Assembly (NCBI RefSeq): GCF_019059575.1
Contig: NW_024881698.1
Span: 248,001-312,000 of the forward strand
Reading direction: 5' to 3'
Origin: Amphibalanus amphitrite
Lineage: Eukaryota > Arthropoda > Thecostraca > Balanomorpha > Balanidae
DNA: 64,000 nucleotides
In this document: piece by piece, positions 353-58,700 of the stretch
Layout of the letters: each line of letters begins with the position of its first letter
Position numbering within the stretch: the first letter of the stretch is position 1
Translations under genes and position numbers: made by a program
The notes under the pieces: generated by a model
Seen by the model: only the letters and a program-made list of their open reading frames with translations
Told to the model about the DNA's origin: nothing
Database searches by the model: none

Positions 353-3300
353 CTGAGGGCGAGAAGGGACCGGCGACGGTCAAAGCCGCCCCAGCTGGTA
401 ACAGCGGCCACTGGTGACGGTCAGGGAAGCTCTGCCAACTCTGCATGAAATGTGAGCAAAATAATGAGCTCATGGGTGTGGAAACATCAATTTTTGTCGT
501 CAGATATATATGGTGCTATCACTTCTTGTTCAAACAACACCTTAAGTAAGTTGCAGCGGTAGGGTAAAAGTGACATTCTCGGCCAATGGCCACCCACCTC
601 TGTAGTGTTATCCTTTATTTCGCTGGCGCTGGACCGGGAGTTGGTTACTGGCGAGGCGGTCGCAGCAGCAGGCACGGCGGCGGGGGCGTCCTTGTTAGCG
701 GCAGTGGGGGCGTCTGTGGCAGTGGCAGGGGCGGAGGAGGGCGCCGCCGCCGCGGGTGGAGCCGCGGGTGGCTCGGCCGCCGGGGACGGGTCCGCCGCGC
801 TCGCCGCCGCTGAGGCCGCCAGGGAGAGCCGCTCGGAGGAGCGGAGCGCGGCGCGCGTGCCGAACTCGGGCCGCCGGTAGCCGCCGTACATGGGCCGGTG
901 CGCCATGTAGCTGCCGGCACTGTACGCCGAGCGCGCAGAGACCGGCGCCGGCTCGGACGGAGCGCCGTTGGCCGCCTCCGAGGCCGGTATGAGCGTCTCG
1001 CGCTGCACCATCAGCCGCACGAACCGCTCCAGGCCGGTCAGCATCGAGACGGCCTGGTCGTGGCGCGCGCCCTCCACGTCCACGCCGTTAATCTGCCAGA
1101 GACCGCAGTCATCTACTTGCACAGCAGTTGGGTGAATAGTGCTGAGCCACATTCCGGCAAAATTAGCAATGATTCTAAAAAAAGTTAAAATGCATTCCTC
1201 TTAGATTTAATAAATAAGTGAGGCTGGCTGTTCCATAGGGCGAAAAAAGGTTCAGGAAAGACACTAACATCTAACAAATTGGCCAGTCATCAGTTGACTG
1301 ATGCGAGCAGCGGATCAGTTAAGACTGGAAGATCAGTAACTATCATTCGTGCCATTGTCGCCACTCACCGATATGACCCGGTCGCCGACGCACAGCTTTC
1401 CGTCTCGCTCGGCAGCGCCCCCGGGGGTCATCCGAGACACGTACACCGCCTGGAGAAAAAGAGGGAGGGAGGCTGAATCAAACGCATAAACGTACACCAC
1501 CTAAAGAAAGAGGGGAGGGTTTAGAAATTAAGCACGAATAAGTACGCCGCCTGAAAAAAGAGACAGAGGAGGCACTCGAAAGAACAACTCTTCACACCAC
1601 CTGACGTAAAATCACATTGGCCTTAGAAAGGGAAAGAAAAACTCATCGAATATTCTAAGTTGATCTAACGGCGCCTAACGTGGGACGGCGGGAAGAGAGA
1701 CACACAATACGAACACCACCTATAACGTGAGAGACGGACAGACACCCTGACAAGTAACGTACGTCGTCGGGCTGTCGCCGCTGCCGGCCGGCGGCGTCGG
1801 CTCCGTCGTAGGGTGCCACGCCGCGGCCGCCGGCGATGCTGAACCCCAGTCCGTTCTTGTCGCGTATCAGCGTGGTGTGGATGGTCTCTGTCCGCGTCAC
1901 CATCGGCTCAGAGTCGGTACCGCCGGCGGCCGGCGGCGACGGAGCCTCCTCACTGGCCGACGTCCCGTTCTCCTGCTGGAAAAGACGCGGTTGTGAGCCA
2001 GATGCGAGGCGGAGTCACTGACCAATAGTCACCGGCTGGTCACAGTTACTGCAGACTGCTGCACAATACCGTTTGAAGTCGATTATTTTCATGCCGCCCC
2101 AGCTTCAGCGAGTAGCAGCTATTAGGTTACTGACTGACCGGCGGCGGCGGCGGCTCGTCCGGCGGCCGCAGCTCTGCGCGGCGCCGCTCCAGTTCGCGCT
2201 GCAGCCGCTGCTGCGTCTCCAGCCGCTCCTTGGCCACGTGGTCGGTGACGGCGTCCACGGGCCGGCGGCGCTCGGCGGCGGGCGGCTCCGGCTCCGGCTC
2301 CGGCGGCGGCACCAGCCGGGTCACCTCGCGCAGCAGGGACAGATGCAGCGCGTCGCCGGCCGCCTTCAGAATGCCCACCACGTCGTAGTGGTCGGCGCCG
2401 AGCACCGGCACGCCGTTCACAGACGTCAGCTTGTCGCCCACCTGGAGGAAACAGCAACGAGTGAACATCAGCTGGAGCAGAGAATCGGCCGGGCAAACGG
2501 AACATATCAGAAATGCATGAGGCCGTGCGGGATGCTCATTGTGTCCCGTGAGAACGCCCACCTTGAGTCCAGCCAGGTCCGCCGGGCCGCCATCCAGCAC
2601 CTTCGAGATGAAGACGTCCTCGTCGTCCCCTCTGAACGGCGTGGAGCCGCGCCCGCCGGCGATACTCAGACCCAGCCCGGAGGGAGCGCGCTGGAACACA
2701 GACACAGACACGCCGGGTAACAACTAACAGTCAGTATTGCCGGCGATGTCAGTCCCAGCCCGGAGGGGGCCCGCTGGAACACAGACACAGAGTACAGACA
2801 CTGGTCAGTACCGCCGGGGACACTCATTACTCAATACTCAGACCCAGTCCGGAGGCCGCCCGCTGTAACACAGACACGGGTAACAGTCAGGAGCTCAGAC
2901 ACACAGATACGGGCGACAGTCGGCACCGCCGGCGATACTCAGGCCCAGTCCACGCGGTTACCACGCAGACCTCCTCACCTGAATGGTCAGGTCCAGGACC
3001 GGCGGACTCTGCTCTCTGTGCCCCGCCCCCTCACCTGGATGGTCAGGTCCAGGACCGGCGGGCTCTGCTCTATGTGCCCCGCCCCCTCACCTGAATGGTC
3101 AGGTCCAGTTGCTGCTCCTCCACCTGCACCGTGGGACCGGCGGCCGGCGGCGGCGGAGACGCGCCGTCGCCGCCCTCCCCCTCGCGCCGCTTCAGCGCCT
3201 GCGCGATGATGGACGCCACCTGGTCCTGGTCCACCTGAGCGGCAGGACGGCGGAGGGCCGGGAGGTCAGTCAACATTGGCCAGAGGGAGGGAGAGTCGGT

Positions 3301-55700: not shown

Positions 55701-58700
55701 TGAAGTCAGCTTTCCTGAATAACATTTTAATGCCGTCAAAAAAAGTAAAAAAGTTCGTTCTCCAACAGAACATGAACAGCTAAGAAGCAACTAATCATCA
55801 AAATTCCCAACTTTACTAACTGGCTAAAAGTAAAAATTGAAATCAAATGAGACCATTGCGGGTTAGTGAACGTACGCGAGAAACAAACAGCTTAGTTAGA
55901 ACTACGCGTTAAACAATGAGGACCACGAATAAAGAGGTCCTCTGAAGCGTCCGGCGACCCTCCAAAGTGTTTGGCCGGGGTGCCCTATCAGCCGCGCCTA
56001 CACCGACTGACCTGATCTGGGCGAGTGCAGTCGGCCCGTGTCGCCGGCAGCTGCAGGCCCCTGGGCGCCGGTGGCCGCGCGGGCCCGCCGCCCGCCCGGC
56101 CTCCTCACACTGACGTGCCAGTCGTCGTCGCGCTTCTCCAGGTGGAAGGGCGCGCCGAGCGAGGCCAGTGCCTCCAGCAGGCTGGTGAAGCCCTGCTGCT
56201 GGTAGTCGAGGCCGCGGCCAAACTCGCGCTGCCGACACACGGGGCGCGTCCCTCCATTCACACCGCAGCCGCAGCTCGTGGAAACCCGAGCTCGCGTATA
56301 CTACTCACAACAGCGACTGTGGTTCCCGAGTCCCAAGTCCCGAGTTCGACACCATGTCACGACGCGCCAGCGCACATACCTAGGTACACTCGGGGGCAGA
56401 TTGATGTTCCACCACTCCCTACCCATCGGGCACCCATGACTCAGCACTGGCTGCTGCCAGTGGCAGCACTGACAGCACTAGCACTGGCAGGGCCACACGG
56501 CAGGTACTCACGTAGTACAAGTTGGGAACGTCGGACACCTTGACGCACTCGCTCTGTGCGGAAATCACCTTCACCAGCTCCTCCGAGAAGCCGCGAACAG
56601 AATCCTCGACTGAAAATTACGACATTCACGTGTCAAGGATCAGGTGGAGCGGGCGCCATGGATTCGTGCCACCGTCTCTGTGATATTATATATTCGCCAA
56701 ATAAGAGCATATTTCAAAATACTAAATGGATGAAAATGGATACACATTTGTCGCCAAAACTCCATCATTAACGGACAGCTTTGCTCCTAGCCAATGATAA
56801 GTGTATGAATCGGACCGAACGCGGGTTGCGAGCATGCGTGCGTGGTACGCGCTGTGTACTGAGCGCATCACGTGAGCATGCGCTGTGTACTGAGTGGCTG
56901 AATTGGGCTGCGCCCGCCATTTAAAGTACTGACATGACAAATGTACAGACGGGAGAAAGCAGTAGTTTAAAGCGCAGTACTGCTTTTTTGCACCTGTCGA
57001 GTCGTCCAGATAGGTTTGGACGGGGGAACAGCACTGTACTCACAGGATAGGAAGGCAGTGGCTGGCGACGCGTCCTGGGCTTCAGCTGCACTGGAGGGGG
57101 TCGCTGAGGAGCCAGCGCCTGCGAACACAGCAGAGTAGTGGGTCACAGCCCGCCGAAACGGCGGCTCAAACAGCAGTGTTTGAGAAACAGCTGACGTCTC
57201 TAAAATAGTGCGACACAATACTAACAGATGCGGTATAAAAAAAACTTTTGCCACGAACCCGGAAGTTGGTGTAAGTTTGATAAATAACTATGCACAATCA
57301 CAGCTACATCCAAACAATGAAGCACATTTACCCCGTGTTACGGTCCTCTTAAAGCGCCTCCATGCGTTCGGAGCAATATGGCCGCAGCAGACTGCGATCG
57401 GTCAGTGGCCTGGGTGCTGCGATCAGTCAGCGGACTGGGTGTCAGTCAGCGGGCGTGTGATCAGTCAGCGGACTGGGCGTGTGATCAGTCAGTGGACTGG
57501 GTGCTGCGATCAGTCAGCTGCTGTGTCAGTAGACTGGTCCCCTCACCCGGTCTCACCTGGCGCCGGGATCGGGAACACCTTGTCGCCGGTGGGAGTCTCC
57601 TTGAGTCGGACCAGCTCCGGTATCGACTCCATCAGGCCCTTCAGCGAGAAGAAGCCCAGGGTGATGTAGGCGATAGCGTGCCCGACCATTGCCAGGTGTT
57701 TCTGATTGAATTCGTCCAAGTATATTCCCTGTGCAAATTAACAATGTCATGTCACCGTCACCGCCGTGAACTAACATGCTAAAATCATACTTTCTTCTGA
57801 ATGACTTTTTGAGAAAATCCATCAATGGTGTCCTGAAGCATAGCCAATTCAAATCAAAGAATCGCTACAATGAAACGAACGAAGACAAGTCATGTCTCGT
57901 GGACAACAGCTGCATATCGCCCATACGACAAAGTGCACCATTTGATGGACGTCCGCGCTCCACCGCCCGGCTGCACCTGCCAGCGGCGGCCGGGGGAGGC
58001 GGCCCGACCAGTCTCCAGCTGTCGAACTCGCCTGTGGGTGCTCGGCGACCAGCCGGAGGATGGACTCGCGCGCCTCGACGGGCACAGAGCCGCCGGCCGG
58101 CCGCCACGGCGACTCCGACTCGGGCGGCGGGCCGGCCGGCCGCGGGCCGGCCGCGCCGCGCCGCCGACCGCCGCTCGTCTTGGGCCGCCGGCTGCGCTCC
58201 ACCATTTTGAGGACGTGTTGAGTGGACGAGTCGCAGACGGGCCGGAGGTGCAGCTGTCCGCCGGGCAGCCGCTCGCAGCGGCACACGTCGGTGGCGTCGA
58301 GCAGCAGCTCCTCCGGCGAGTAGAAGCCCAGTCGCCGGTACGGGATCGACGTGTTGGTCAGCTCCCTGCACACCGACGGCGCATACGGACGGTTAGCACA
58401 CCGACGGCGCCCGGTCAGCACACAGCACGGACAGCCCGGGTCAGCACACAGCACGGACGGCCCGGGTCAGCACACAGCACGGACGGGCCGGTCAGCACAC
58501 AGCACGGACAGCCCGGGTCAGCACACAGCACGGACGGGCCGGTCAGCACACAGCACGGACAGCCCGGGTCAGCTATTGACGAAAACCACAGACGGACAGG
58601 CCCGGTCAGTCCCAACAGGATCACAAAATGCACCAGTCAAAGTTCAAGCGGCAGCAAGTGGCGTGAATACGTTTTAGCACTCACTGTATGTTGTACCTAC

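Follow-up and report, generated by a model that had tools for sequence, protein, structure and literature searches.

Mirage minisatellites copying exon edges in unrelated genes of the barnacle Amphibalanus amphitrite

Results

In a 64,000-nt stretch of the genome of the barnacle Amphibalanus amphitrite (contig NW_024881698.1, positions 248,001-312,000 of the forward strand, label C201; hereafter the window), the genes scrib and Tdrd5-like carry short tandem duplications that run across their exon-intron boundaries, and Tdrd5-like and a third gene, Rab32, carry tandem copies of their stop-codon segments. Eight of the 64 intron ends of scrib and Tdrd5-like lay inside a local tandem duplication that included both the splice site and exon bases (five acceptors and three donors). 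Short segments were repeated in tandem within introns, across exon edges and after stop codons, the pattern recurred in unrelated genes, and copy numbers differed between haplotypes. These arrays belong to a kind that is known though seldom studied, the "mirages" of lancelets, and we do not claim that they are unreported in crustaceans. The explanation that we prefer, with a probability of about 0.7, is that local duplication occurs readily in this genome and that copies spanning an exon edge are tolerated since the exon-proximal site still serves.

The genome assembly comprises 807.6 Mb in 2644 contigs. Gene-family searches often returned matches on two contigs for one gene, and both haplotypes therefore seem to have been assembled. 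Gene models in the window were obtained by reading splice boundaries from the sequence. We modelled 21 exons of scrib (minus strand, 242-14681), with a single frame open through the joined exons, and 13 exons of Tdrd5-like (minus strand, 52680-58903), of which exons 2-13 were open when joined; at 58031, exon 2 of Tdrd5-like has a modelled GC donor instead of GT. The gene names are those of the original prediction, made earlier from the sequence of the window, and the Pfam domains agree with them: LRR and PDZ in pieces of scrib, LOTUS and Tudor in Tdrd5-like, and Ras/Roc in the one Rab32 exon searched. The scrib sequence is presumably nearest to the fly protein.

Introns with 150-bp exon flanks were self-aligned (score threshold 16; stricter threshold 20), and a duplication was scored as edge-crossing when the boundary lay inside it with at least 6 bp on either side. 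The 32 introns of scrib and Tdrd5-like held 19 duplications (median repeat unit about 48 bp), eight edge-crossing and 11 not, at odds with the statement of the original prediction that arrays in ordinary intron interiors are far fewer. Its proposal that arrays copy exon edges was borne out at seven of the boundaries it named, all on the minus strand. In scrib, the end of exon 7 with its GTGAGA donor was recopied at +108, and a third, decayed copy stood at +209 (9163..9425); the acceptor of exon 13 lay in a 42-bp duplication of tract, AG and the 8 initial exon bases (5202..5288), and the donor of exon 15 in a 56-bp unit (2970..3108); diverged copies of the exon 16 acceptor stood upstream of the real one, at distances of 83 and 172 bp (2653..2951). 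The corresponding Tdrd5-like features were the exon 7 donor (55396..55526; a 70-bp unit present twice), the exon 10 acceptor (54003..54516; a 63/71-bp unit with seven motif copies of GGCAG followed across the boundary by GGGTCTCTGG) and the exon 11 acceptor (53620..53867; an 87-bp unit holding the acceptor and the start of the exon). An eighth copied edge, the acceptor of scrib exon 19 (1439..1569, minus strand), had been overlooked; its copies are weak and diverged (score 16, none at the stricter splice-copy cut-off), and it was lost at threshold 20, leaving 7 of 16 events edge-crossing in the window genes.

Two boundaries named as copied were not. A 47-bp unit in about 31 copies ends exactly at the acceptor of scrib exon 10 (6397..7844, minus strand) and abuts the exon with no exon bases copied, and the array upstream of Tdrd5-like exon 2 (58390..58573, minus strand; 26/51-bp unit) stops short of the acceptor by 25 bp according to Tandem Repeats Finder (TRF) or 44 bp in the self-alignment scan. 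Two more minus-strand arrays adjoin scrib acceptors: diverged duplications of ~80 bp touch the site of exon 15 (3234..3383) and were excluded from the crossing count, and a 25-30-bp unit stops 11 bp short of the exon 5 acceptor (10151..10308). Dinucleotide-shuffled introns (10 rounds, 95-intron set) gave a mean of 1.9 events versus 34 observed; as sequence, the repeats are real and far above chance.

The claim that stop codons are copied as well held for both genes. The Rab32 stop segment 'GACTGCGTCTGCTAG' was followed by four copies at 48892-48986 with at most 3 mismatches, in an array of a 29-bp unit that recopies C-terminal codons and the stop downstream of the gene's own stop (48844..49014, plus strand). 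A 31-bp unit (52388..52687, minus strand) likewise copies the stop codon segment of Tdrd5-like, which was followed by nine copies from 52657 down to 52419.

We further scored the splice signals of 28 intronic copies near 16 sites (eight in the window, five outside it and three on the second scrib haplotype; not all independent). GT or AG was kept in 27 of the 28, and 18 of these 27 canonical copies had a splice score equal to or above that of the real site; at two of the 16 sites, scrib exon 19 in the window and L079, no copy was found under the splice-copy cut-off. Since the intronic copies contain intact extra sites, the cell must distinguish the right site among them. The exon-proximal AG or GT was retained in both scrib haplotypes and the joined window exons were open; judged by the reading frame, the site in use would in each case be the copy adjoining the exon.

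Comparison with a second scrib contig (C106:599100-608900, stretches L086 and L087) revealed exons 5-18 with AG/GT at all 14 exons and 2358 of 2413 aligned exon bases identical to the window (97.7%), exon 14 being shorter by 54 bases and exon 17 longer by 12. Copy number, taken as a plain Hamming count with motif and mismatch limit identical for both haplotypes and the real site included, was unlike between haplotypes in seven of the eight arrays at or beside scrib edges, four of which copy the boundary (exon 13, exon 15 donor, exon 16 and exon 19). In the window and C106, respectively, we counted 30 and 2 copies in the exon 10 array, 2 and 1 at the exon 13 acceptor, 3 and 6 at the exon 15 donor, 3 and 2 at the exon 16 acceptor, 2 and 4 at the exon 15 acceptor, 4 and 1 motif copies in the exon 5 array, and 4 and 13-14 or more at the exon 19 acceptor, where the C106 array (~51-bp unit) reaches the end of the stretch compared. 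For the Tdrd5-like exon 10 acceptor, with 7 copies in the window, the 801-bp C106 stretch ends inside the array after 6 whole copies, and overlapping alignment coordinates suggest additional copies of the exon 7 donor on C106. A CCT chaperonin gene outside the window (L040) had 4 copies versus 3 in its allele. Of the original suggestion that duplicate splice sites are either tolerated or favoured, the first half fits these data: copies vary between haplotypes, and the exons and their AG/GT are constant. Exon-intron structure was alike in both haplotypes and a new intron position was not seen in scrib exons 5-18; because positions are unchanged, no intron gain is shown.

These comparisons bear on two other accounts of the arrays. 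That they are assembly artefacts is very improbable, as copies within the short arrays differ by point changes, arrays are present on both haplotype contigs and they recur in unrelated genes, although reads would be required to confirm how many copies the 1.4-kb array holds. Multiplied splice sites might instead confer an advantage by making splicing stronger or by regulating it, and the canonical dinucleotides of nearly all intronic copies are what this account would lead one to expect; we consider it unlikely all the same, given that haplotype copy numbers lie far apart (30 to 2; 4 to 13 or more), that one acceptor duplicated in the window is present only once in the other haplotype and that stop codons are copied too. 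The extra copies are more probably neutral.

Further matches to the two genes were noted in passing. On L087, the intron that follows scrib exon 18 contains over 1 kb of repeats with GCACGTGCGCACGTGCAG motifs, resembling 19030-19269 of the window, where the same intron is 313 bp. A third, more diverged scrib match (C48:521999-525555, 74-94% identity) has an exon 9-10 interval of only ~360 bp by coordinates, and so is without the long exon 10 array. Both C106:497847-510756 and C106:534337-542667 match Tdrd5-like, with further pieces on C1096 and C569, and the gene may be duplicated on one haplotype.

As the window had been picked for the pattern, its statistics alone were judged insufficient, and 88 introns of CCT chaperonin, SNF transporter and myosin genes were added, giving a combined sample of 120 introns and 240 intron ends. 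Genes outside the window were modelled by homology together with a generic splice matrix, introns being delimited via profile or tblastn hits plus this matrix. Exon links scoring below 9 or 10, depending on batch, and unlinked pairs were excluded, as were haplotype or paralog duplicates (10 in one batch, further ones in later batches); two poorly scored CCT introns (L042 at 2623 and L044 at 4033) were removed by hand. By hit coordinates, the L044 intron at 1376-3841 is ~2.46 kb on one haplotype contig versus ~0.37 kb on C1085. One myosin head exon has three tandem alternative copies on C1447 and three on C1366; such copies are typical of arthropod muscle myosin.

Under the null model, a tolerated duplication of unit p has its start at any point of an intron of length I0 or lies across one of the two ends. 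The expected edge-crossing share is then ~2p/(I0+p); for p = 60 and I0 = 250-300 this is about one quarter to one third. The unit was taken as the shortest or the best-scoring period, the latter overstating the expectation for multi-copy arrays. The window alone showed no clear edge excess (8 edge-crossing events versus 5.0 expected, P = 0.07, with the shortest period, or versus 5.9 expected if the best-scoring period is used, P = 0.19). The original prediction had proposed measuring the distance from TRF arrays to the nearest edge; run inside the two gene spans (77 TRF rows in the window; 21 merged arrays, 5 inside exons left out; Tdrd5-like stop counted as an edge), this test gave 10 of 16 arrays within 50 bp of an edge versus 7.1 expected under random placement (P = 0.095), 8 of 16 within 15 bp versus 4.8 (P = 0.052) and 6 of 16 overlapping an edge versus 3.6 (P = 0.11). 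Edge coverage by any duplicate was also tried (7 of 67 modelled boundaries versus 24% of intron-interior points, score 18) and was dropped in favour of events because long arrays dominate coverage.

Several results weigh against tolerance as the sole explanation. Across the 120 introns, edge-crossing events numbered 13 versus 7.8 expected (P = 0.02, threshold 16), and 12 versus 5.9 at threshold 20 (P = 0.003; 9 acceptors and 3 donors versus 2.95 each), whereas the best-scoring-period unit in 95 introns gave a non-significant 11 versus 8.9 (P = 0.24). Acceptors accounted for 10 crossings in the 120 introns versus 3.9 expected (P = 0.003), and donors for 3 versus 3.9, with no excess, as random breakpoints would predict. 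Among the 20 events in the 88 outside introns, 5 crossed an acceptor versus 1.4 expected (P = 0.008) and none a donor versus 1.4. This acceptor excess counts against our preferred explanation since pure tolerance does not predict it. Two arrays also did not vary as rapid turnover would suggest: the scrib exon 7 donor had 2 motif copies in each haplotype, and L042 had 2 in each allele. All five outside acceptor-crossing cases were inspected in sequence; they include four variants of CAG followed by GTATAACTTCTTCAGCGAGTG in L040, and a duplicated CCCAG followed by CG.GACTCGGAGCT in L081.

The acceptor excess may reflect a bias in where duplications are born or a longer time for which they can be detected. 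On the first account, which is compatible with tolerance, the pyrimidine tract and nearby AG of the 3' splice site region would promote slippage or misaligned repair. This is the surviving part of the original proposal that splice sites seed duplication, which the donor counts do not support and which may hold at acceptors, and the greater duplicate coverage on the acceptor side agrees with it. We hold it as doubtful: the acceptor test was framed post hoc, after the first batches; over 16 settings its P value ranged from 0.0007 to 0.08 outside the window and from 0.06 to 0.34 inside; and acceptors compared directly with donors did not differ significantly (P = 0.09). Duplicate coverage per base in the 95 introns was near 0 at 40-60 bp into exons, climbed across the edge and was broadly higher in the intron interior, not strictly monotonically, with no peak at the edge, acceptor included.

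The second account is one of ascertainment. Selection would hold the working copy constant so that only the other decays, the duplication would stay recognisable for longer, and acceptors would be more constrained than donors. We think this somewhat more plausible, if short of an even chance; it would follow from constraint, and edge copies do closely resemble the real site, but many arrays vary between haplotypes and look young, which would leave little time for decay.

Other repeats in the window include long, diverged minisatellites at 23417-23965 (20-bp unit) and 31943-32434 (18-bp unit), outside the three genes, and arrays are therefore common beyond genes too. A GA/CT microsatellite of 496 bp lies downstream of the Rab32 end (49672-50167). 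The segment at 25289-30613, with a gag-pol-like long open frame (26876-30187) flanked by two LTR-like stretches with a common minus-strand translation, looks like an LTR (long terminal repeat) retrotransposon.

Discussion

Tolerated local duplication, our preferred explanation, would work as follows. Local duplication would be frequent in this genome, with breakpoints more or less random. Copies in exon interiors would alter the protein and be purged by selection. Those across edges and 3' ends would be tolerated, since splicing at the exon-proximal copy would join the exons in frame and remove the remainder. With introns as short as these (median about 300 bp), roughly one in four to one in three 60-bp duplications placed at random would span an edge, so that edge arrays are to be expected in one gene after another. 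From two copies onwards, unequal exchange or slippage could grow and shrink the array, giving fast turnover. In line with this account are the lack of a donor excess, the coverage profile without a peak at the edge, the constancy of exons beside variable copy numbers, the canonical dinucleotides of nearly all intronic copies and the like structures in 5 of the 88 introns outside the window. Preservation of the reading frame by the repeats was considered as an explanation and rejected, since units of 34, 47, 56, 70, 71 and 83 bp cannot be divided by three.

The original prediction knew of no named process that acts in this way, but one had been described as mirages in lancelets, where the Adh3 mirage is reportedly unstable in somatic tissue. 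Ordinary intronic minisatellites (variable number tandem repeats) have similar unit sizes and haplotype length differences; the barnacle units differ in containing the splice site and coding bases. Mirages are minisatellite-like duplications of intron-exon boundaries, reported in lancelet Adh3 and globin genes (BflGb6 and BflGb9; PMC3087553) and in troponin C and PGBD5 (PMC3902484). As set out in these reports, they are, like the barnacle arrays, tandem duplications over a donor or an acceptor, with units of 10 to about 160 bp and splice signals kept in many copies, and copy number differs between haplotypes; BflGb6 has haplotypes with 6 and 3 units, and no disturbance of regular splicing was noted (PMC3087553). 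In the barnacle, the repeat unit included the boundary and exon bases at 8 of 64 intron ends in the window and 5 of 176 outside, 13 of the 240 sampled, and both 5' and 3' boundaries were duplicated (3 donors and 5 acceptors in the window; all 5 outside were acceptors). The systems differ in that the reports cited describe mirages gene by gene in cephalochordates, whereas the barnacle arrays come from several unrelated genes, for which a rate was counted and compared with a null model; barnacle arrays also occur at stop codons, and the ~31-copy scrib array abuts its exon without copying it.

Local duplication with splice-site sequence is also a feature of intron gain or sliding by tandem genomic duplication, as in Drosophila near intron pairs (PMC2891723) and the potato RdRp gene (PMC4974935). 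As presented in those accounts, intron positions there are changed or new, whereas in scrib exons 5-18 they are the same in both haplotypes. Intron gain from mirages has itself been proposed (PMC3087553).

In the reports cited above, mirages look like a lancelet peculiarity; they are now found in unrelated genes of an arthropod. The haplotypes with 2 to 30 copies beside one exon are natural alleles for studying how the spliceosome selects among near-identical sites, and they bear on whether local duplication feeds intron movement. There is also a lesser chance that minisatellites of this lineage are truly born at 3' splice sites, which would steadily supply intact duplicate acceptors. If so, the spliceosome would choose among duplicates by position alone, and the copies would be raw material for intron sliding and gain.

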